The notes beneath the pieces are model-generated. The model ran no database searches and had not been told where the DNA came from. It worked only from the letters and a program-made list of their open reading frames with translations. From Clostridiales bacterium (GTDB lineage Bacteria; Bacillota; Clostridia; Oscillospirales; Oscillospiraceae): DNA of 64,000 nt. The position numbers were made by a program, and so were the translations under genes. Below, piece by piece: positions 2,529 to 38,345 of the stretch (position 1 is its first letter; each line of letters starts with the position of its first letter). The stretch lies in NCBI GenBank assembly GCA_020859945.1, contig JAJBVG010000036.1, positions 1-64,000 of the forward strand, given 5' to 3'.

Positions 2529-3778
2529 TTACTTGGAAGCGTTTTTGAACTTCCGGGTCTTGTACTCCTTCGCCATTCGGTCCAGGTCGTCCTTCATGAT
2601 TTCCGACAGGGAATGGGTGTTGTTGATGGCCCACAAAATGTCCGATGTCTGGACGTGGGCCTTGTCATCGGCAAAGGCGGCCTCCACCGCGTCCCGGACC
2701 ACACCCTCGATGTCCGCGCCGCTGTAGCCCTCGGTTTTGCCTACCAGCTCAGAGAGCCGGATCTGCTTCAAATCCTGGGGGCGGCGCTTCTGGATGTGAA
2801 TTTCAAAAATCTTCTCCCGCTCTTTGCCGTTGGGCAGACCCACGTAGAAAATCTCGTCAAACCGGCCCTTGCGCAGCAGCTCAGGCGGCTCCAGCACCTG
2901 AACGCAGTCCGGCGGCTGGCTGACCACCCACCGGGCGAAGCCCTCCGCGAACGCGCCCAGCTCCACGGTGACGGCGTCCTCGTCCTCCCGGACCACCCGC
3001 AGCCCCCGGAACCGGTCGTGCAGGTAGGGGTAATAGCTCTTCCGGCACCGCAGGGTGATGCTGCAAAAGTCCCCGCCGTACATCTGCACGATGCCGGGGG
3101 CGCAGGTCTGGAGATAACGCTCCACCCGCCGGGTCTCGTCTCCGGTCTGTCTGCGCACCACGGAGAAGGAATAGATACGGTCCACCCGGAAATAGGCGGC
3201 GTAGGGGGCCTCGCTGTCCTGGTGGTACGCCACCAGGTAGAGATACCCCAGGTCGTACCGGAGCAGGCAGGGGAGCAGCGTCCGGTTGACGGTGTTCCCG
3301 TCCCCCTTGACGTACTGCACCTGAATGACGGAGCGGTTCTGGATGATGCGCTGCAAATCGCCCTGCATTTTCAGGAGAGGGGATTTGTGGAGCGGCTCCT
3401 GATAGCCCTCCATGACCGCCCGCTGGTGGAACAGGACGTTTCCCGCGTGTTCCGTGTTCCGGGCGAGATGGGAGAGCAGGCCGTCCATCCGTCCTCCCGC
3501 AGGACGCCGGTGTCCAGCAGAAGCCGCTCGACGAAGAGGTACTCCATCGTCTCCAGCGGCTGCTGCCGCACTCCAGTAAGGGAGTAGGCGTTTTCCCGCT
3601 TGTTGTAGCGCAGTTCCTCGCCGCTGAACGTCTCGCTGAGATAGAGGCGGATGTCCTCGATGTCCCAGTCAAAGGAGCGGGGGTGGCTGTCGGTCTCCAT
3701 GCAGAAGATGAGCTTGTTTACGCTCTCCCCCTGCATCAGCTTGCTGTACAGCAGGAGCAGCCTGGTGTTCTTGTCCAT
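2529..3778 (-). pseudogene. Frameshifted WYL regulator fused in frame to an AAA+ ATPase C-terminus
   Basis: Reading starts at 3778 (MDKNTRLLLLY) with an N-terminal helix-turn-helix region of about 95 residues. Near 3488 the frame breaks; the continuation (3488-2529) needs one extra base and carries a WYL ligand-binding domain (about 150 residues). At 2888-2871 the WYL tail PPEL runs without a shift into ELLRKGRFDE, the arginine-finger region of an AAA+ ATPase, followed by its lid motif GYSGADIEGVVRDA. The Walker A and B half of the ATPase is absent, so no ATP hydrolysis is expected. WYL proteins commonly repress or sense for defence operons. The join looks like a deletion between a regulator and the next gene, using shared PPEL coding sequence. 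An assembly collapse is the alternative. Confidence 0.75.
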
Positions 3779-3966: not shown

Positions 3967-4134
3967 AAGAGAAATTCTCTCATAATACCCTTAAAAGTTC
4001 TAAAAATCTCATGGCCCAGCAAAGGACATTTATCCCGGAACAGCCTTCTATTCCGGGGTAAAAAAGTTCAAGCAGGAAAGTCGGGCGGTGCAAACAAATA
4101 TCTATAAACCTTTTATTTCTTCCTATTGACAGAC

Positions 4135-4166
4135 AAACCGCGCACAGGTCGCCCCGCGCGCGGTTG
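4135..4166 (-). terminator. Terminator after the esterase gene
   Basis: AACCGCGC (4136-4143) pairs with GCGCGGTT (4158-4165). On the minus strand the stem is followed by TTTGTCTGTC, a weak T tract. It lies about 50 bases past the stop codon of the gene at 4218. Confidence 0.5.
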
Positions 4167-4217
4167 TCGTTTGGTTGATTCGGTTATACTCCCTTCAAGG
4201 ACAAAAACAATCCTTTG

Positions 4218-5546
4218 TTACTTCTTAACGGTAACGGTCTTGACCTTGCTCCAACCGGCGTAAGAGGTCACGCTGCCGGAGGTCTTATAAGCCCGCATAC
4301 GGATGTAATACTTCTTGCCCTTGGTCAGGTTTTTCAAAGTGGTGGTCAGGTTCTTGTTGCCCTTGATAGTGACGGTCTTGGTGGTAGAGCTGGAGAAGCT
4401 GCTGGAAGTGGAATACTGGATCTGATAGCCGGTGGCCTTGGTGTTCCGGGTCCACTTCAAACTGATCTTCTTGCCGCTGACGTTCTTGGCACGGGTGAAG
4501 TGCTTGGCGGTCAGGCGGTAGATGGTCTTGGCGGCGGAAGCCTTGCTCTTACCGGCGGAGTTTACCGCATAAACCTTGTACTGGTACTTAGTGCCGTTCT
4601 TGGTGGCGGCGGTGTCGGTCCAGGAGGTGGAAGAGGTGGTCTTGACCTTTTTCCAGCTGCCGCTGCCGATCTTACGGTAGACCTGGTAGCTGGTGGCGGT
4701 GGATACACTGTTCCAGGAGAGCTTAATTCCGCTGGCCCGGTTCACCGCAGAGGTGATCTTGGTGGCGGAGGGGACAGTGACCTTTGTGGCTGCTGCCAGC
4801 GCGTCAATGGCGGCAGTCAGGGCAGAAGTAGCTTCGTCCACCTCGTCCTGGGTGGCATCGGCGTTGGCCGCGACAGTCTTGGCGCTTTCCAGCGCGGTTT
4901 CCAGGGCAGCCCAGGTGCTGCTGGTGTAGTCGCTTTCGGTCAGGGCTTCAGCCTGCTCGATGGCGGCGGTCAGGGCGGAGGTGTCAACAGCAGAGGTGGT
5001 ATCCTCGTCCTGCCATGCAACATTGGTCAGGAAGTCGTTGACCGCAGAACTCCACACACTCCAGTCGTGAGCGCCGCTCATCACTTTGAAGGAGGCGGAG
5101 CCGCCCAGGGCCGCAACTTCTTCATAGATTGTATAGGAGGCCGGTTCACGGTAATCCAGGTTGCCGCAATAGACGCTGATGACGGTGTTCTTGATGTCAT
5201 CCAAATCAGCCGTGGCGTTGCTCAGAGGGAAGCTGCGGCCCACAGAGCTGATGCCGATATAAGCAAACTCTTCGGGGATTGTCTGCATCAGCGTGGTGGC
5301 CATAGAACCGCCGGCGGAAAGGCCAAAGACCGCCCGGTCATTGACTTCGGTGGACGCGGAGTAGTTTTCCTCCATAAAGGGAACGATCACGTCCGCAATG
5401 TTCCTGGCCACGGCTTCCAGGTCGCTCATATTGTTAACAGAGCTTTCTGCGCCCTCGGAAGGAGATGCCTCTGAATTTTCCACACCGCAGGCCGCCACCA
5501 CGGAAATCATGCAGACAGCGAGTAGAAATGCAAGAAACCATCTCAT
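4218..5546 (-). CDS. Secreted lipoprotein: truncated esterase domain with FIVAR and two FN3 domains
   Basis: The start at 5546 (MRWFLAFLLAV) gives a lipoprotein signal with a lipobox ending VAAC and a proper ribosome site; longer upstream reading lacks one. Residues 60-180 are the C-terminal half of an esterase-D/feruloyl-esterase-like fold with nucleophile motif GLSAGGS and a late His in SGAHDW. The N-terminal half with the first strands of the alpha/beta-hydrolase sheet is missing, so activity is doubtful. Residues 190-260 resemble a FIVAR module (ALTAAIEQAEALTESDY), and two fibronectin type III repeats of about 90 residues end the protein. It would sit on the cell surface, binding or trimming glycans. 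It is downstream of, and almost touching, the acetyltransferase gene. The missing half looks like an internal in-frame deletion. Confidence 0.75.
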   Translation of the reverse strand: MRWFLAFLLAVCMISVVAACGVENSEASPSEGAESSVNNMSDLEAVARNIADVIVPFMEENYSASTEVNDRAVFGLSAGGSMATTLMQTIPEEFAYIGISSVGRSFPLSNATADLDDIKNTVISVYCGNLDYREPASYTIYEEVAALGGSASFKVMSGAHDWSVWSSAVNDFLTNVAWQDEDTTSAVDTSALTAAIEQAEALTESDYTSSTWAALETALESAKTVAANADATQDEVDEATSALTAAIDALAAATKVTVPSATKITSAVNRASGIKLSWNSVSTATSYQVYRKIGSGSWKKVKTTSSTSWTDTAATKNGTKYQYKVYAVNSAGKSKASAAKTIYRLTAKHFTRAKNVSGKKISLKWTRNTKATGYQIQYSTSSSFSSSTTKTVTIKGNKNLTTTLKNLTKGKKYYIRMRAYKTSGSVTSYAGWSKVKTVTVKK

Positions 5547-27869: not shown

Positions 27870-28988
27870 TCAATACCCAATATATACAATGTCGCTCACA
27901 CTTCTTTCTTTGATGTGCCGCCCGCTGGTGGTGGGCTGGTTGATGACCTGGCCGTTGAAATACAGGGTGGAGGAGCCGCCGCCGTCCAGATTATAGGCAG
28001 TGGAGCCCCCCAGCTCTGACAGAAACGCCGCCAGTTCGGAGAGGGTCAGCCCCGCGCTCTCCTCCGTGCGCCCGTCGGAGACCACAAATACATAGTGCGG
28101 GCTGTCGATGATGCCGATGGCCGTCCTGGGATTGCTGGCCTTGGCCTTGCCCACCTCCTCGTCCTGGGTGACGGAAACCGTCCCCTCCGTCACCAGCGCC
28201 GGACCAAAGGAGAGCACCTGGACCGCGCCGGCTTCCAGCAGCGGCTCCGCTGTCACCTCGTCCTCAGAGATAATGCCAAAGGAACCGTTCGCGTAGATGA
28301 CCAAGTCCTCCTGGCCGCTGGACGCAGTGGAGCGGTAAAGGGCGCCGTTGCGGATCACATATCCGCTCTCCTGCGCGCCATAATAGTCCCCGTTGATGGC
28401 CAGAATCGCCCCCACGCTCTCAGCAATCTCTGAGGTTTTTGCGGTGACGTTCCGGCCATAGGCGTTTTCGGCCAGAGCCGTCTGCGAATACTCCGCGGAG
28501 GAGAGGACGATGTCCGCCACATAAATGGCAGTCTCGTATTCCCGGTATTCCGTCAGGGTGATGGTGATATTCTCGTCGCTGTAGGAGGTTTCGGTGATGA
28601 TCGTCTCCGTCTCCTCCTGCGCCTCGTCCTCAATTTCCTCTGTTTCCTCTTCTGTCTGGGCAGACTGGGCGCTGCTTTCCGCCTCAGCTGCCACGGCGTA
28701 GACCCGTGTGATAACGAAAGTATCCAGAGCCAGGTAGACGGTAAAAGCGGTCAGCAACACGCTGTAAAGCACCGACCAACTGAGCAGAAAGAACAGCAGC
28801 TCGGTGCAGAGCTTGGCGGCGTACCGGTTCATCCCCAGTCCGCCGGTCAGGAGGTGCAGCGTCCAGGTGTTGCCCGTCAGCACCACCACCGCCAGCAGGA
28901 AATATTGTCCGGCGGACCTGACGGCGCTTCTGTCGCTTTGAAACACCAGGTTCCGGTTCAGGGTGTAATTGACGCTGGCGCTGACCAC
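27870..28988 (-). CDS. In-frame fusion: partial GtrA-like membrane domain joined to a phosphodiester glycosidase (NAGPA-like)
   Basis: 372 residues. The first 70 or so (VNYTLNRNLVF, then LNMNR-like loop MNRYAAKLCTELLFFLLSWSV) are the C-terminal half of a GtrA-family flippase-type protein, which moves lipid-linked sugars. Without a break the sequence continues as LYSVLLTAFTVYLALDTF, the N-terminal anchor of a phosphodiester glycosidase, then an acidic linker and the NAGPA domain with AINGDYY, NPRTAIG, VSDGR and AYNLDGGGSSTLYFNG. The glycosidase part, which in this family hydrolyses a sugar-phosphodiester bond, is complete. The GtrA part has no N-terminus: the frame begins at a GTG codon right at a junction with a rightward AraC fragment. 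Deletion or assembly error both explain this. Confidence 0.75.
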   Translation of the reverse strand: MVSASVNYTLNRNLVFQSDRSAVRSAGQYFLLAVVVLTGNTWTLHLLTGGLGMNRYAAKLCTELLFFLLSWSVLYSVLLTAFTVYLALDTFVITRVYAVAAEAESSAQSAQTEEETEEIEDEAQEETETIITETSYSDENITITLTEYREYETAIYVADIVLSSAEYSQTALAENAYGRNVTAKTSEIAESVGAILAINGDYYGAQESGYVIRNGALYRSTASSGQEDLVIYANGSFGIISEDEVTAEPLLEAGAVQVLSFGPALVTEGTVSVTQDEEVGKAKASNPRTAIGIIDSPHYVFVVSDGRTEESAGLTLSELAAFLSELGGSTAYNLDGGGSSTLYFNGQVINQPTTSGRHIKERSVSDIVYIGY

Positions 28989-29009
28989 CCGCGCCCCCCA
29001 CGTTGGAGG

Positions 29010-29334
29010 CGGTCAGGCTGGCCCCGCCGCCCTCTACGCGGAGACCCATTTGGCGGAAAAAATCACCCTGGAGGGGGCGGCACAAAGCCTGCTGGTCAGT
29101 CAGAGCGCCCTCCAGCAAACCTTCCGGGACAAACTGGGGGTCAGCTTTTACCGCTTCGTCACCCAACGGCGGCTGATCGCGGCAAAAAACCTGATTTTGG
29201 AGGGACAACCTCTGACTTCCGTTGGGGAACAGGTGGGCTTTTCTGACTATTCGACCTTTTATCGGGCCTTCCAAAAGGAATACGGCGTTTCCCCCTCTCA
29301 GTTCCGCAAGAGGAACCGGCCCGCTAATGGATGA
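29010..29334 (+). pseudogene. C-terminal DNA-binding part of an AraC-family regulator
   Basis: The frame from about 29010 to 29334 covers both helix-turn-helix motifs of an AraC regulator (LEGAAQSLLVSQSALQQTF and LTSVGEQVGFSDYSTFYRAF) and ends GVSPSQFRKR. The sensor domain and the start codon are missing. The 5' edge abuts the truncated start of the GtrA/glycosidase gene on the other strand, so one rearrangement near 28990-29010 cut both genes. The fragment could bind DNA only if some upstream start is used; none with a ribosome site is visible. Confidence 0.75.
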
Positions 29335-29716
29335 CGGGGTTTGTTGATCGCAGCAGTCTGATGTTTGTCTAAAACAGGCGATTCATGAATTTGTTCCGTT
29401 TTGATATTCTCTGATTGATTCCTTTTTCTGCGGTTTCACTCACATTGTTTCGTAAATTCGTTCCTGTTTTCCCTATCTTCAACGCCAGTCTCAGAGGCAG
29501 CGCCATCCAGAACAATGTCTCCTAGCGAGGGGACTGCAACGTCCCCTGTTCCTTCTATTAGCAAACAACACGCCGCTACCCTGCGCGCAGGATAGCGGCA
29601 TTGTTTTACCCGTCAGACAGATGATGGTACAGGTTGCTTGCTAATTTCTATATTCTTTGCGCTGCTACCGGCGGAAGAATACGTTGTCGCCGCAGGAATT
29701 GTGCACAGAAGTTTTA
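29335..29716. other. Intergenic region at the edge of an AT-rich segment
   Basis: No gene is supported. It contains a strong terminator at 29567-29608 and a shorter GGGGAC/GTCCCC stem near 29529-29547. From about 29340 the base composition becomes clearly more AT-rich, which continues through the module at 29717-31869. Confidence 0.5.
29567..29608 (+). terminator. Strong terminator downstream of the AraC fragment
   Basis: ACAA...GCCGCTA pairs with TAGCGGC...TTGT, and the centre CCTGCGCGCAGG is itself a palindrome. TTGTTTTACC follows on the plus strand. Confidence 0.7.
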
Positions 29717-31006
29717 TCAATCCCATGATATTGTTTCTAAATGTAAATCATCCCCCTCTATCATTTTCTTGTAGCTGCCAAAAACAAATTCCTTTTTAAT
29801 TTCCCGAATATATTCCTTGTCACTGATTAGTCGTTGAACCATCACCAGCAGTCCACCCATGTCCAGCTGCTTTATGGTAGCTTTATTTCCAACTGCCATG
29901 TTCCCTCCAACCCAGAGGGCATTGCTGGAGGTGGCGATGACGTTAGAATATGTAATTATTTTCCTGGTGCGGATGCTGTACACATCTTTTGATATTCCAT
30001 CGGCGGGGTTATACATGAGCATATGGACGGTAGAAATGATGGTGTTAATAAGCTCCGCCAATTTCGCCGAAGCACCTACTTTCATCAAATCGCCATTGCT
30101 TACGTACTTGGTCAGCCGTTCAACATCCTTGTTGGAAAGGATGAGATTGGCCGCCGGGATCTGGATTCCGCAAGGCGTATACAAATCTGTGCCAATATGA
30201 ATGATTTGCTTGATTAGCGATGCCACAAGCGCGCCCGGCTGTTCTTTCGTTCGCTCTATTACATTTTCCAGCATTACAATAGTTGACCCATATGTCGCAA
30301 TCCGCGGGTCCTTATAATCTGATGTATAAACGACATGATTGGTCGTCAGCACCGGAATACCAATCCCTTTTACCGCAATCGGTGTTTTCACACAGGTAAT
30401 GGTATTGGTCATGATGTTGCCCGTTCCAAAAATCAGGCCCAAAACAGGATCATGCCCCAACGTAGAGTAGCGGTGGTTTGCACCCTTAAACAGATTCATC
30501 TTTTCTGTAGGGATATAGGATTCTATATCGAAATCCCACATTCTGTTTTTACCTTTTAAGTAGTCGATTTGTGCTTTTGTCAATGGAGTTGTCGCATCAT
30601 AGGGAACGCCCAGTTTCGTAATAATATGCTCCATTGACGCATGGTATGGCACCTCCTCCTCTTCCGGATCGGCCCCAAACTGCTGCAATATTTTTTCTTG
30701 GAATTTATGTAGAGTGTCTTCCTTTTGGTTTCCCTGGCCGGCCTTTTCCGGTTTGGTCAGTTCATTCAGAATGACCCATCTAGCGACCTGCAACCCTGTA
30801 GCTACAAACAAAAACGGGATGTCCTTTCCATTCAGCCCTGTTTGATTTTCAAACTCACGGTCCAAATCGTCCAGTATTTCCCTTGTATTGTGGGCCACTG
30901 TTGCGACCCGGTTCGCCTCCTGTCGGCCTTCCTCCAAGCTGTTGATGGTATTATCCATGCGGCCCTGAATCTGGGATCTTCTTTTTCGGAACTCTTCGCT
31001 GCTCAT
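29717..31006 (-). CDS. Unknown protein, second gene of an uncharacterised two-gene module
   Basis: 429 residues; I do not recognise the family. Residues 1-60 are a charged coiled-coil-like helix (RRSQIQGRMDNTINSLEEG). A hydrophobic helix follows near 65-82 (IPFLFVATGLQVARWVIL). The centre has a striking glycine-rich segment, LGHDPVLGLIFGTGNIM, then alternating hydrophobic and small-residue stretches that could be membrane-associated or a packed beta/alpha core. No nucleotide-binding loop, nuclease triad or metal site is evident. Its start overlaps the stop of the upstream gene by four bases (ATGA), so the two proteins are translationally coupled and likely interact. Composition is more AT-rich than flanking genes, which suggests transfer. 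Linked WYL and XRE regulators hint at defence or stress, by inference only. Confidence 0.65.
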   Translation of the reverse strand: MSSEEFRKRRSQIQGRMDNTINSLEEGRQEANRVATVAHNTREILDDLDREFENQTGLNGKDIPFLFVATGLQVARWVILNELTKPEKAGQGNQKEDTLHKFQEKILQQFGADPEEEEVPYHASMEHIITKLGVPYDATTPLTKAQIDYLKGKNRMWDFDIESYIPTEKMNLFKGANHRYSTLGHDPVLGLIFGTGNIMTNTITCVKTPIAVKGIGIPVLTTNHVVYTSDYKDPRIATYGSTIVMLENVIERTKEQPGALVASLIKQIIHIGTDLYTPCGIQIPAANLILSNKDVERLTKYVSNGDLMKVGASAKLAELINTIISTVHMLMYNPADGISKDVYSIRTRKIITYSNVIATSSNALWVGGNMAVGNKATIKQLDMGGLLVMVQRLISDKEYIREIKKEFVFGSYKKMIEGDDLHLETISWD

Positions 31007-31869
31007 GATTTCACCTCACATAAATATTTCAGCTCCGCAATCTGCATTTTGGTTGTAGAAATTTCATCCAACATTTCGCAAATGATGCCCATTAATTCCT
31101 GACACTCGGCGTTTCCCTCCGCTTTCAGCTTATTCAGCTTCTTTTTTAATTCATCAATCTTTGCTTCGTTCGTCTTCTTCATGTCCTGGTATTTGCGTTG
31201 TGCAGCTTGATCCATCTTTCTTGCTTGCGCCCTATACAACTGATTAAACAGTAAGGAGATAATGCCAGAGTATTTGTCACCGTGTAATATGAGCATTAGG
31301 ATTATTAGAACTGGATCAATCTTGCCTAATGTGCCCGTGGTGGTTGTGTTAAAAGGTTCACCGTCAGGGATATCAGCCGTGTCGAGTGTTTCCTGCGTTT
31401 TGGAACTGGATTCAGATTCCTCCACTATGCTAGACAAATCGAGCGTTTTCCCAAGTACAGGAAGAAAAACGCTTCCATTCGCAACAATACCTTTAGAAGC
31501 TTCTTTAGTAACATCTTTTATTTGCTGGTTCACCCGTTGTTCAAGCTTTTCCTTTGTTTTCTCCAGTTCCTCCAGTTTTTCTTGCAGAGCATCTGCCTGA
31601 ATGTCAAATGCCTCATCCTTGGCCTTGAACAGTTCAAGGGTTTGCTGGTATTCATCCTCAATTTCCTTGTATGTTTCCTCAAATTCCTGAGCTGCTTTTT
31701 CACAGCCTCTCTTTCCTCCTTCAATTTCGACATCACTACGGATTACAGCTAATTTGTTCGGGATTTCTTTTATTTGCAGATGTACATCCTCTTGGATTTC
31801 GCCTATCTTTTCTGACACAGTATTTCCAAGGTCATCAAAGAACATTTCTAAGTCAAATAGGAAACCCAT
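31003..31869 (-). CDS. Unknown coiled-coil membrane protein, first gene of the two-gene module
   Basis: 288 residues; family not recognised. Residues 55-125 form a long coiled coil (FEETYKEIEDEYQQTLELF, LQEKLEELEKTKEKLEQRV). A short linker rich in Ser and Thr follows, then one hydrophobic segment (DPVLIILMLILHG, about residue 190). The C-terminal 70 residues form a second coiled coil (KTNEAKIDELKKKLNKLKAE). This layout suggests a membrane-anchored scaffold with helical arms on both sides. It starts at 31869 with GGAGG upstream and overlaps the next gene by four bases. A WYL regulator gene lies 110 bases upstream in the same direction. Confidence 0.65.
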   Translation of the reverse strand: MGFLFDLEMFFDDLGNTVSEKIGEIQEDVHLQIKEIPNKLAVIRSDVEIEGGKRGCEKAAQEFEETYKEIEDEYQQTLELFKAKDEAFDIQADALQEKLEELEKTKEKLEQRVNQQIKDVTKEASKGIVANGSVFLPVLGKTLDLSSIVEESESSSKTQETLDTADIPDGEPFNTTTTGTLGKIDPVLIILMLILHGDKYSGIISLLFNQLYRAQARKMDQAAQRKYQDMKKTNEAKIDELKKKLNKLKAEGNAECQELMGIICEMLDEISTTKMQIAELKYLCEVKS

Positions 31870-31902
31870 CCTTTTATCCTCCTAAAATATAAAGTATTCT
31901 GA

Positions 31903-31955
31903 TTATTCCTCCAGCGCAACATACTCCCCCTGGCTTCGCAGCCACATATCGCCCT
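31903..31955 (-). pseudogene. Duplicated tail of a WYL regulator
   Basis: The minus strand reads GDMWLRSQGEYVALEE and stops, nearly the same as the last residues of the WYL protein ending at 31979 (IDMWLRSQGEYVTIEV). Only about 16 codons remain. It lies between the intact WYL gene and the unknown two-gene module, and shows that a second, diverged WYL gene or the 3' end of the same gene was once here. Confidence 0.65.
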
Positions 31956-31978
31956 CCTCTTCTGAAAATGTATCCTTT

Positions 31979-32920
31979 TTATACCTCTATCGTAACATAT
32001 TCCCCCTGGCTTCGCAACCACATATCAATCCCCTTTCCAAACACCTCCGCCTGCACGGTATACACCCCGTTCTCTTCCTTCAAAATCTCCGCCGTGGGCA
32101 GCCTGTCCAGAACCGCCTCGATGGACGGCCCGGAGTAGGTAAACCGCACCGTGCGCAGGGTGCCGCCGTACATGAACTGCACCCGCTTGCGGAACTCGCC
32201 TTCCTCGAACCGGTCCCGGTAAGGGATGCGGAAGTGGTCCTTTGTGATTTGGAAGTCTCGAATACGGTCAATGCGGTAAATAGTAGAGAACAAATCGTCT
32301 GCGTGTTCAAAGTGACTTTCCCGGTCAATATCCTCAATAAACGCCGTCAGATAGAAGTAATACTCCGAGAACATGATGCCCACCGGCTGCACCCGGCGAG
32401 TGACCAGCGTCGGGTCTTTCATCCGCTCATACTGAATCTCCACCACAAGCTGGCTCTGAACAGCCTGGCCCAGCTCCCACATGGTCTCCAAAATAAGCTG
32501 GCCGTGGTGCGGCTCGATGTAGTGGAACTTCTCGTTGTTCAACAGCCGTTCCACCGTCCGCAGGTTCTCCTCTGGAACACAACAGGCGACCAACTTCTCC
32601 AGGATGGGCATCATCTCCTCTTTGCAGAGGGAGCGGCTCTCCAGGAGGAATTTGCACACGGCAAAAATCTCGCTGTTGGACATTCTCAATGGCGGACTGC
32701 CGCTAAGTCGGTAGCCCTTCTTTTCCCGGTCATAGACAATGCTCTCAGACTGCCCCTGTTCTGCCAGGAAACAGCGCAGAGACTCCATGTCCCGCTGAAT
32801 ACTCCGCTGGGTCACGCCGAACTCCAGAGCCAGTTCCGCCTTGCCCAATATCTCACCATTGCTCAGGCGGTGGTAGAACACCAGCAGACGGGAAGACTTT
32901 ACGTCTGGGATGTAACTCAT
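31979..32920 (-). CDS. WYL-domain transcriptional regulator
   Basis: 313 residues, complete. Residues 1-60 are a winged helix-turn-helix (LGKAELALEFGVTQRSIQRDM), followed by a linker and a WYL domain (about 145-225), which binds nucleic-acid or nucleotide-like ligands, and a WCX-type C-terminal extension ending GEYVTIEV. Regulators of this kind often control phage defence genes and CRISPR loci. It is transcribed towards the unknown module at 31869-29717 and is the best candidate to control it. A small XRE regulator diverges on its other side. It is clearly different from the broken WYL gene at 2529-3778. Confidence 0.85.
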   Translation of the reverse strand: MSYIPDVKSSRLLVFYHRLSNGEILGKAELALEFGVTQRSIQRDMESLRCFLAEQGQSESIVYDREKKGYRLSGSPPLRMSNSEIFAVCKFLLESRSLCKEEMMPILEKLVACCVPEENLRTVERLLNNEKFHYIEPHHGQLILETMWELGQAVQSQLVVEIQYERMKDPTLVTRRVQPVGIMFSEYYFYLTAFIEDIDRESHFEHADDLFSTIYRIDRIRDFQITKDHFRIPYRDRFEEGEFRKRVQFMYGGTLRTVRFTYSGPSIEAVLDRLPTAEILKEENGVYTVQAEVFGKGIDMWLRSQGEYVTIEV

Positions 32921-33043
32921 TCAATTTGCCCCTTTCCATGTGCCAAAAGGCATAAATCTATATCTAATAAATATAATATCCTATTTGTTCGCTCATGTCA
33001 ATCGCTGACTGAAACGGGTAACATAGTTCTGTGAGGTGAGAAC

Positions 33044-33274
33044 ATGAAACCTGTTTACGCATCGGAATATTTGCAGTTGGGCTTGAAAATTGCCTACTAC
33101 CGCAAGCTGCGGGGGCTGACCCAGGAACAGCTGGCGGAGAAAATTGACCGCACTCCCGCCTTTATCGGCCATGTGGAGGCTCCCAACATCGAAAAGGCCA
33201 TTTCGCTGGACACCCTGTTTGACATCGCCACAGTGTTGGACGTTCCAGCCTATAAGTTCCTGATGTTCGACTGA
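33044..33274 (+). CDS. Small XRE-family helix-turn-helix regulator
   Basis: 76 residues consisting almost entirely of one HTH_3 domain: IAYYRKLRGLTQEQLAEKI, TPAFIGHVE, then ISLDTLFDIATVLDVPAYKF. No ligand-binding domain is present. The start at 33044 follows a GTGAGG site. It diverges from the WYL gene across 123 bases, and a terminator lies 235 bases downstream. Such single-domain proteins often act as repressors of neighbouring accessory genes; a partner in control of the WYL/module locus is possible but unproven. Confidence 0.8.
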   Translation: MKPVYASEYLQLGLKIAYYRKLRGLTQEQLAEKIDRTPAFIGHVEAPNIEKAISLDTLFDIATVLDVPAYKFLMFD

Positions 33275-33886
33275 CTCCGGCAGCTTTCTTCGTATCCCTA
33301 TCATACCATATTGGGGTGGACAGCTGATGTCACTTTGCAAAAATTCGTGAAAAAATTTTTGACGTGGCCTCCGTCAAAAGAGGTCACGTCCAATTACGAT
33401 GACGTAAAAGCAAACCGATAAAACTGTGGGGAACACTTCACGATCTGTGAACGCTGTTTTTCAACCTGTTATGCCTGTCGCACTCGACAATCTAAATCGT
33501 ATTACCTGGTCTTGGGCTATCTGCCCAGGACTATTTTTATTTGAAGGAAAATACACTATAAACGAAAGGCTCTAAACCGTCATGAATGCTTTACTTGATC
33601 TTGCGGGATAGCATCGCCTTAGAGCAGACTTCTGATACAGCTAAAACATTCTATAATTCCTTACATGTTTCACAGTTAAATGAGGTTCAATTTAGCTCAA
33701 TGTTCTTCTCTGTGCATTTTTCTTTCGAGCCGCTAGCTACTAGCTGCCAAAAACGTGGCGGATTCAAATGAGCAGTCGTAACCTTCCATGTGCTGCTGCA
33801 TTTTTGCAAAGAAAACGGCAGCTTCCTATTATAGGCCGCTGCCTTTCTCGATACCACTTTATTTTTACGATTGAGCGCCACGGACG
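33275..33886. other. Intergenic region with terminator and no supported gene
   Basis: Contains a GACGTGGCCTC/GAGGTCACGTC hairpin (33360-33390), the terminator at 33509-33539, and a short open frame at 33586-33771 without a ribosome site that I do not accept. The right end (33710-33886) flanks the MATE gene end and contains a CGGCAGC...GCCGCTGCC hairpin near 33818-33845, a possible MATE terminator. Confidence 0.45.
33509..33539 (+). terminator. Terminator downstream of the XRE gene
   Basis: GTCTTGGGC (33509-33517) pairs with GCCCAGGAC (33523-33531), and TATTTTTATTT follows. It fits the end of the small rightward transcript starting near 33020. Confidence 0.65.
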
Positions 33887-35644: not shown

Positions 35645-36817
35645 ATGCCCAACAAAGATTATACTACAGCGATTCTCAATTTGGAAGATGTCAAAATCAC
35701 GAATGTAGAAAATGAGATAGATACTATCCACATTTATCTGGAGCTGCCTCGCAAGGAGCACATCTGTCCCGCTTGCGGGACAGTGACCAACTGTGTCCAC
35801 GATTATAGAGTACAAGTGATTAAAGACATTCCTCTGGGGCGAAACACATACCTGCACTTGAAGAAACGTCGTTATCGCTGCCCGGAATGTGGGAAACGCT
35901 TTGCGGAGAAAAATTCATTTCTCCCTCGTTACCAGCGTAAGACCAACCGCCTGACCGCCAGTGTGATCAATGCCTTCCGCAAGGCTCACTCGGCCACTGA
36001 GATAGCGGAACAATATAATATTTCTGTGTCCACGGCTTTGCGCATTTTTGACCTTGTTTCCTATCAGCCCAAAGAGCTGCCGGAGGTGCTTTCTATCGAT
36101 GAATTTAAGGGAAATGCGGGAGGGCAGAAGTATCAAACGATTCTTACAGACCTGAAAAAGAAAAAGATACTGGACATTTTACCAAATCGTTATGAAGCTG
36201 ATTTGATTTCGTATTTTAAGCAATTTCCGTCAAGAATGAGTGTAAAATACTTTGTTTGTGACATGAATCCGCACTTTCGGTCTGTGGCAAAGGCTTGCTT
36301 TCCAAAAGCAAAAATCGTTGCGGATAAATATCATGTGGTTCGGCAGGCTGTATGGGCAATGGAGCGAGTGCGCAAAGAGGAACAGAAAAAATTATCCAAA
36401 CGGTTCCGCATTTATTTCAAACGTTCCCGCTATCTTTTGAATAAACCAAAGGAAACGCTGACCGAAGATGAAATGAACCGGTTAGCCCTGATGTTTGAGA
36501 TCGCTCCGCGCCTGGCGGATGCCTATCGAGTCAAAAACGAATTTATCGCTGCCATGCGAGCTGGCTCTTCTCAGGAAGGACGGAAACTGCTCCTGTGCTG
36601 GCTTCAGAGTGTAAATGTTCTGGAGCTTCCGGAGTTTAATGCCTGTGTAACCGCCTGCTATAACTGGTTCCAGGAAATCCTGAACTCTTTTGACGTACCC
36701 TGGACAAACGGATTTACTGAGGGATGTAACAACAAAACCAAGGTACTGAAACGGGTCTGTTACGGCGTCAGAAAGTTTGATCGCTTTCGCAACAGAATCC
36801 TTCACCGTGCTCCGTAA
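35645..36817 (+). CDS. ISL3-family transposase
   Basis: 390 residues, near normal. An N-terminal zinc-finger pair (CPACGTVTNC and CPECGKRF) is followed by a helix-turn-helix (SATEIAEQYNISVSTALRIF) and the DDE catalytic core: Asp in VLSIDEFKG, Asp in VCDMNPHFRSV, and Glu in FTEGCNNKTK. All three acidic residues are present, so the protein may be active. It begins ATGCCC at 35645 after AAAGGAAG. The element's right end is displaced by the IS3 insertion but intact. Confidence 0.95.
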   Translation: MPNKDYTTAILNLEDVKITNVENEIDTIHIYLELPRKEHICPACGTVTNCVHDYRVQVIKDIPLGRNTYLHLKKRRYRCPECGKRFAEKNSFLPRYQRKTNRLTASVINAFRKAHSATEIAEQYNISVSTALRIFDLVSYQPKELPEVLSIDEFKGNAGGQKYQTILTDLKKKKILDILPNRYEADLISYFKQFPSRMSVKYFVCDMNPHFRSVAKACFPKAKIVADKYHVVRQAVWAMERVRKEEQKKLSKRFRIYFKRSRYLLNKPKETLTEDEMNRLALMFEIAPRLADAYRVKNEFIAAMRAGSSQEGRKLLLCWLQSVNVLELPEFNACVTACYNWFQEILNSFDVPWTNGFTEGCNNKTKVLKRVCYGVRKFDRFRNRILHRAP

Positions 36818-36918
36818 ATAGAGAAAGCCAGAGTTTCCCCTGGCTTCTGATATAGTCCCCTTAGAGTAGACACTCGAAAAAGCAAAAATTTCGAGGCTAC
36901 ACTAAGGGGGCTATTATT

Positions 36919-37455
36919 ATGGCAAGAAGCAGTCGTAAGAACAAGAAATACAGTATTGAATTAAAGAAGGCTGCGGTAGAGGCATATCTGGCAGGAGAAG
37001 GAGGACTACGAACAATTTGTCAAAGGTATGAGATTTCGGATCATCATGTACTCCGAAACTGGATTGCGTGCTATAATGGTCAGAAAGAGAATAAGCAGCC
37101 CAGTGCTGCAAGAGGAGCGCTCTATATGACCAAGGGGAAGCAAACAACACAGCAGGAACGGGCAGAGATCGTAGCCTTCTGTCTGGAGCACGGGAAGGAC
37201 TATTTGCAGACAGTTAAGCAATACGGTGTGTCCTACAACCAGATTTATTCCTGGGTGCGCAAGTATGAGGAGAAGGGAATAGACGGTCTGGCAGACGGCA
37301 AAGGGCGTACAAAGCCGGAAAGTGAGATGACTGACACCGAGAAGCTTCAGGCCCAGGTGCGGATGCTGGAGGCCCAACTCCGGGACAAGCAGATGGAGAT
37401 TGATTTGTTAAAAAAAGTGAAGGAACTGGAAGGAGGTGTTTGGTGGGAGAAGTAA
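36919..37455 (+). CDS. IS3-family transposase OrfA (helix-turn-helix protein)
   Basis: 178 residues with two helix-turn-helix regions (LRTICQRYEISDHHVLRNW and TVKQYGVSYNQIYSWVRKY) and a C-terminal leucine-zipper-like helix (LQAQVRMLEAQLRDKQMEI). It binds the element ends. Near its end a run of seven A (37410-37416) precedes a G, a classic slippery site: a -1 shift there enters the orfB frame, which is open from that point with no stop, giving the OrfAB transposase. This is the standard IS3 control of transposition. Confidence 0.9.
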   Translation: MARSSRKNKKYSIELKKAAVEAYLAGEGGLRTICQRYEISDHHVLRNWIACYNGQKENKQPSAARGALYMTKGKQTTQQERAEIVAFCLEHGKDYLQTVKQYGVSYNQIYSWVRKYEEKGIDGLADGKGRTKPESEMTDTEKLQAQVRMLEAQLRDKQMEIDLLKKVKELEGGVWWEK

Positions 37456-38345
37456 GACAGGAACCGTTGTATCTGGCAATTCAATATATACACGAAACAG
37501 AGAAGCATCCAGTGTCTAAATTGTGCGTTGCTCTTCACATTCCACGCTGTTCGTACTACAAATGGCTAAAACGGGAGAAAAACAGCAACGAGTTATTAAA
37601 TGAACAGATAATTGAATGGATTAAGGAACTTTACATAGAGCAAAATGGGATTCTTGGCTACCGACAGATGACCATCGCTATTAACCGTATCCATCATACA
37701 GCGTTCAATAAGAAGCGGATTTACAGATTGATGCGCGCTTTGGGGCTGCGTTCTGTATGTCGGAAAAAGAGATACCGTTACACACCATCCACACCGGAAG
37801 TCACCGCTGAGAACATCCTGAACCGGGACTTCCATGCCGACAAGCCGAACGAAAAGTGGCTGACAGATGTAACAGAGTTCAAGTGGTATGAGGGACCGGT
37901 GATACATAAGCTATACCTTAGCGCCATTCTGGATTTGTATGATCGCCGGATTGTGGCATACAGAATCGGCCCCAGCAATAACAATGCGCTGGTATTTGAT
38001 ACCTTTGATGAAGCTGTCGGGCGGAATCCAGACGCACACCCTCTGTTCCATAGTGACCGCGGGTTTCAGTACACTAGTAAACTGTTCCGTGCAAAGCTGG
38101 AGAAAGCAGAGATGACGCAGAGTATGTCCAGAGTGGGAAGATGCATCGACAACGGTCCAATGGAAGGCTTCTGGGGAATCCTCAAATCTGAGATGTATTA
38201 TCTCAGGAAGTTTACAGACGAGCAGGAATTGACGGATACCATTGAGAATTACATCCAATTCTACAACACAAAACGATACCAAAAGCGACTTATGTGCATG
38301 ACACCTATGGAGTACCATGAAGAGTATCATGCAACCGCTGCATAA
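37440..38345 (+). CDS. IS3-family transposase OrfB (DDE integrase core)
   Basis: 301 residues. After an N-terminal HTH_21-like region (NGILGYRQMTIAINR), the rve core has the catalytic triad: Asp in KWLTDVTEF, Asp in FHSDRGFQY, and Glu in MEGFWGILKSEM. All are intact. Independent translation could begin at TTG 37440 after AAGGAGG, while the productive transposase is expected from -1 frameshifting in orfA. It reads up to 38345, 84 bases from the right end of the element. Confidence 0.95.
   Translation: MVGEVRQEPLYLAIQYIHETEKHPVSKLCVALHIPRCSYYKWLKREKNSNELLNEQIIEWIKELYIEQNGILGYRQMTIAINRIHHTAFNKKRIYRLMRALGLRSVCRKKRYRYTPSTPEVTAENILNRDFHADKPNEKWLTDVTEFKWYEGPVIHKLYLSAILDLYDRRIVAYRIGPSNNNALVFDTFDEAVGRNPDAHPLFHSDRGFQYTSKLFRAKLEKAEMTQSMSRVGRCIDNGPMEGFWGILKSEMYYLRKFTDEQELTDTIENYIQFYNTKRYQKRLMCMTPMEYHEEYHATAA

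Follow-up and report, generated by a model that had tools for sequence, protein, structure and literature searches.

Bunzi, formed by BnzA and BnzB, is an anti-phage system whose mechanism is listed as unknown (PMC12926258) and for which a TerB domain has been noted (PMC10952713). The WYL proteins CapW and BrxR act as repressors of other defence operons, namely CBASS and BREX (PMC9122588, PMC9122601), and PADLOC includes PDC-M09 as a phage-defence candidate. Here, we scrutinized a 64,000-nucleotide stretch of a Clostridiales genome (hereafter the window), in which a WYL regulator heads an operon of two further genes, A and B, and compared it with these systems. Like Bunzi, A and B form a two-gene block, and B is a BnzB homolog. 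Unlike Bunzi, the module has a WYL/XRE head and, in place of BnzA with its N-domain, TerB-like region, and Gly-zipper, an unrelated coiled-coil protein, A. No match of A to the BnzA model was found at E<=1, nor was TerB found in A or B at E<=1 (Pfam); hence, going by the two-gene definition, the locus is not Bunzi but a Bunzi relative and, judged from sequence comparison, apparently a distant and uncatalogued one. PDC-M09A-type partners likewise accompany BnzB-type cores, and in one case, in a sister genome (G031), they do so behind the same WYL head, but neither A nor B of the window matched a PDC-M09 model at E<=1. As with CapW and BrxR, the WYL regulator lies directly upstream of a defence-type operon and is preceded by a conserved control region. 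It gave no sequence match to any solved structure in the PDB, either as a single sequence or as a family profile.

Organization of the WYL-A-B Operon

The operon lies on the minus strand. Its first gene encodes the WYL-domain regulator (313 aa, 31979..32920), whose WYL match (Pfam, E=3e-8) is above the Pfam cut-off, whereas HTH_11 in its N-terminus (E=0.007) is below it. Gene A (288 aa, 31003..31869), an ORF predicted to encode a partner protein that folds as a coiled-coil hairpin and includes a short hydrophobic stretch, and gene B (429 aa, 29717..31006), encoding the BnzB-like core, follow and share the four-base ATGA overlap recorded in the first-pass annotation. The complete WYL regulator and divergent XRE regulator reported there were likewise confirmed from the ORFs, the latter being an XRE-type HTH protein of 76 aa on the plus strand (33044..33274; Pfam HTH_3, E=1.3e-9). 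The block had also been described as AT-rich, which holds for A (40.8% GC) and B (45.3% GC) in a window of 58.2% GC but not for the WYL (55.0%) and XRE (52.4%) genes, both of which are nearly host-like. The foreign look by GC is restricted to A and B.

Comparison with related copies supported the coding status of these genes. B differed from its sister-species copy by 36 synonymous and 28 nonsynonymous codon changes, which indicates purifying selection once the larger number of nonsynonymous sites is allowed for. The WYL paralogs were separated by 67 synonymous and 19 nonsynonymous changes, and the XRE protein was identical to that of a paralogous module on contig C26 of the same genome (20 synonymous and 0 nonsynonymous changes). 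These substitution patterns mark B, WYL, and XRE as real coding genes under constraint. No further operon gene was found downstream of B in the window, where a constant 3' segment (29538..29687, minus strand) carries a terminator-like hairpin (29601-29570). WYL-A-B is a real, well-bounded module.

The region between the divergent WYL and XRE genes (32921..33043) contains a strong promoter-like site facing the operon (TTGACA-17-TATTAT, 33001-32973, minus strand). Between the window and its C26 paralog, 2/123 sites of this gap differ compared with 85/389 third codon positions of the adjoining genes (p=4e-9). Since these are fewer differences than at third codon positions on either side, we interpret the gap as a control region that has been conserved, although the similarity could also stem from a short gene-conversion tract. 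Across loci with enough flanking sequence, a same-strand WYL gene occurred within 2.5 kb upstream of B in 19/88, some of them overlapping the next gene, and none of this kind was found in 320 kb of control DNA. XRE genes were near WYL in a minority of B loci. The regulated two-gene system proposed in the first-pass annotation was borne out as a WYL-headed operon.

Several other features of the window were recorded. Convergent to the module is an AraC-type HTH fragment of 121 aa (28969-29334) that overlaps the start of a GtrA/phosphodiester-glycosidase gene and looks truncated. Beside the module, a MATE gene is adjoined by an ISL3-family transposase (35645-36817) and an IS3-family pair (36919-38345), together spanning 35645-38345. 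At 2916-3778, two weak WYL-regulator matches (E=7e-8 and 2e-7) lie in different open frames and represent a WYL-type regulator, perhaps split.

Gene B Belongs to the BnzB Superfamily

The first-pass annotation had called the module uncharacterized and had overlooked the kinship of B with BnzB. The PADLOC BnzB model PDLC03834 matched B at E=1.1e-26 (92 bits), aligning B 100-407 to profile positions 200-479, so that, unlike in Bunzi, the main match does not start until position 200 of the 504-position profile. The canonical-type BnzB of sister genome G031 matched the same model at E=1e-117; compared with this value, window B represents a distant BnzB branch. Relatives of B matched the model at 1e-18 to 1e-30, and B belongs to the BnzB superfamily. 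No match to B was found in Pfam, NCBIfam, or PHROGs, in phage records, or in the PDB by sequence.

Across 109 relatives of B (about 80 clusters at 70% identity), D137, H178, H185, G190, H270, and D274 were invariant. H185 and G190 had been partly preselected by a search pattern, but they were equally constant in loci retrieved by profile, for which that pattern was not used. Position 62 was always D or E and position 273 always S or T. D62 and these six residues, encoded within 30185..30823 (minus strand), are shared with the BnzB of Bunzi, and the conservation presumed for the LGHDPVLGLIFG segment was evident among the relatives. Because the polar set is invariant despite identities to B as low as 16%, a catalytic or metal site is suggested; the His/Asp set would then form a putative, unrecognized enzyme or metal site. 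The earlier statement that B has no known catalytic motif consequently stands with respect to known families but not with respect to this candidate site. An HD-domain phosphohydrolase, considered for the H...HD...D pattern, was rejected, as residue 186, D in window B, is N, S, H, or E in canonical BnzB and the H...HD...D spacing of that family differs from that in B.

The AlphaFold2 model of B (pLDDT 87.9) was mainly helical with a small strand region. Foldseek searches of the PDB and of viral models gave best E values of 0.76 and 0.48, respectively, and VIA-align gave a best Z of 7.8 (Munc13 MUN domain), a value commonly reached by unrelated helical folds. The model has no convincing match to a solved or viral fold and we claim none. 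In three Coriobacteriia loci (L068, L069, and L072), the open frame containing B is 645 to 676 aa long, possibly fused to an extra domain.

Gene A and Other Partners of B

In its predicted structure (mean pLDDT 67), A consists of two helices of ~80 residues, connected by a disordered linker and a short hydrophobic segment (about residues 184-208). Coiled coils on both sides of one hydrophobic helix had been proposed; the hydrophobic segments of A family members are weak, however, so that a true membrane helix is not assured. Searches of A against Pfam, NCBIfam, and PHROGs returned coiled-coil noise only, and A was not found in viral contigs. A ZorA3 match (E=6e-4) was confined to the coiled coil and the Pfam scan contained no MotA-type family, so Zorya was rejected.

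A and B travel as a pair. In the window and five further loci reached via B, A was directly upstream of B in 6/6, and a search of 398 genomes of the phylum that started from the A profile by itself added one genome (G971), in which A is directly followed by the start of B before the contig ends. Conserved co-occurrence, on which the first-pass annotation had let its own proposal stand or fall, was thus found, B being immediately downstream in all seven A loci.

Beyond A, the neighbors of B were strikingly varied in some 110 loci. The window-type A partners formed a cluster of six (210-288 aa). Other partners were Gly-zipper proteins (182-205 aa), membrane proteins (358-381 aa) accompanied by a 139 aa protein, dynamin GTPases (Pfam, E=2e-18), beta-helix proteins, and TerB proteins, and partner genes in related loci matched PDC-M09A/B. 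The Gly-zipper partner of the C26 paralog, the only BnzA-model match in its own genome, aligned with the Gly-zipper region of BnzA (E=5e-10), and a 358 aa partner with the N-terminal region (E=4e-15). By these matches, BnzA looks like one assembly of pieces found separately elsewhere.

Several unrelated partner classes have in common the motif G[YMFCL]..[ASG]...[FYW]E.[KRT], which in A reads GCEKAAQEFEET (residues 55-66; 31672..31707, minus strand). It was present in 39/281 genes adjoining B vs 2/830 other ORFs (0.19 expected in shuffles), counts that come from partly related loci and from the very data used to refine the pattern. The motif follows the membrane segment in membrane partners; in dynamin and beta-helix partners it is N-terminal. 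We read it as a possible docking element, while its position on coiled coils makes convergence possible.

Cassettes Are Exchanged behind the WYL Head

The second module of the same genome, on C26, has a WYL regulator 94% identical to that of the window. Behind this head, a 182 aa Gly-zipper protein is followed by a 467 aa B that is about 32% identical to window B, and DNA similarity to C26 spans 31921-33393 of the window, ending in the WYL-A gap. In sister genome G031, the head (88% DNA identity) and the outer flank are the same, but the cassette is PDC-M09A/BnzB/TerB-like. In sister genome G023, the window's B (93%) is followed by three genes that are PDC-M09B-, TerB-, and PDC-M09A-like; its contig starts at B, so the head lies outside its sequence. 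Collectively, four loci in three sister genomes share the 3' terminator segment and three of them the WYL head, with differing cassettes between. The terminator segment was restricted to the three module-carrying members of the genus among 32 genomes searched, except for one 38-bp match. The latter is a copy (95%) of the hairpin core on contig C66 of the source genome (10542-10579).

Between WYL and A, the window contains a remnant of a second WYL gene's 3' end (GDMWLRSQGEYVALEE*; 31903..31953, minus strand). A divergent relic occupies the same place on C26 and none is present in G031. This second copy is likely a footprint of cassette exchange. Related strains exchange the cassette that follows the WYL head, and recombination in the conserved WYL tail would be the simplest account at the sequence level. 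Any match to B was found in 5/98 genomes, the source genome included, and A occurred in 1/200 genomes of the same family. Together with the foreign GC content and the exchange breakpoints, these frequencies support the horizontal acquisition suggested in the first-pass annotation.

Genomic Context and Alternative Functions

Relatives of B were also found on plasmids, beside large serine recombinases, and in viral-collection contigs. Plasmid pNP40 carries WYL, a B homolog, and a 486 aa partner (L039 5088-8675). pNP40 is known for phage resistance (PMC8194271), and this block may account for phage-resistance activity of the plasmid that still lacks an assigned gene. In the flanks of B relatives, 175 PADLOC models were hit in 127 genes vs 75 in 113 control genes, with real defence genes in both sets and models that overlap; other defence genes show no clear excess near the relatives.

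These mobile locations, and the resemblance of the XRE gene to HipB-type antitoxins, would also suit a role in stabilizing mobile DNA, either toxin-antitoxin-like or in plasmid conflict, in which B (or A with B) is a toxin restrained by A or the regulators and anti-phage activity is incidental or absent. We consider this unlikely, as the dynamin, beta-helix, and Gly-zipper partners exceed a usual antitoxin in size and variety and BnzB is part of a reported defence system.

Less probable still is an envelope-stress or surface-remodeling function without a phage link, whereby A and B would act on membrane shape and WYL would sense envelope or DNA damage. Membrane-type and dynamin partners are compatible with it, as are the LRR or FN3-like surface-protein genes that adjoin the cassettes of G031 and the C26 paralog, but the extremely patchy distribution (A in 2/398 genomes of the phylum) and the exchange of cassettes at a fixed head are unlike a housekeeping role, and the BnzB and PDC-M09 matches point elsewhere. 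DNA at 4134-4988 of the window is 80-87% similar to the FN3-like surface-protein gene beside the C26 paralog (L040 6540-7661), indicating a repeated family.

On the Lactococcus dairy plasmid pLLI11B, the gene order is WYL, A, B, BnzA (E=5e-128), and a second BnzB-like gene, placing the A-B block directly beside canonical Bunzi. The coexistence of both pairs indicates that A and BnzA are different partners and, with the missing BnzA match of A and its lack of TerB, makes it improbable that the locus is simply a diverged Bunzi of the ordinary kind with an unrecognizable BnzA, even though B is a BnzB homolog and other partners match parts of BnzA. The same position of the pair, along with the BnzB homology of B, upheld the link to phage defence proposed in the first-pass annotation.

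Discussion

We favor, with moderate confidence, a Bunzi-related, WYL-controlled anti-phage module. Counted against this reading are the weak membrane segment of A, its missing match to BnzA, possible convergence of the motif, the unclear enrichment of neighboring defence genes, and the lack of a fold or sequence match that would identify B as an enzyme. We infer, for the module, anti-phage activity, enzyme activity, and docking, and the docking-and-enzyme reading in its detail is tentative. By analogy with CapW for CBASS and BrxR for BREX, WYL, perhaps with XRE, would keep the operon low and release it upon an infection- or damage-linked signal. The coiled-coil hairpin of A may then hold B through the shared G-Y-x2-A-x3-Y-E-x-K motif and, as a scaffold or adaptor, place it at the membrane or at a phage target. 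B, with its invariant His/Asp set, would be the enzymatic or switching core, and its activation might harm the cell envelope or block phage entry, giving abortive or early protection.

More generally, though this falls short of being probable, BnzB-type proteins could form the enzymatic core of an immune platform that is large and modular, into which unrelated effectors (coiled-coil, Gly-zipper, dynamin, and beta-helix) plug via one short docking motif, with the cassette exchanged by recombination at the conserved WYL 3' end. The locus and its relatives offer handles on the mechanism of Bunzi, namely the His/Asp set, a candidate docking motif, and natural effector swaps behind one regulator. 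They provide evidence for a modular superfamily, which current models either divide or overlook. If this is true, many gene pairs labeled "hypothetical" in gut Firmicutes, Bacteroidota, Treponema, and dairy plasmids would constitute one defence superfamily, which a search requiring BnzA would miss.
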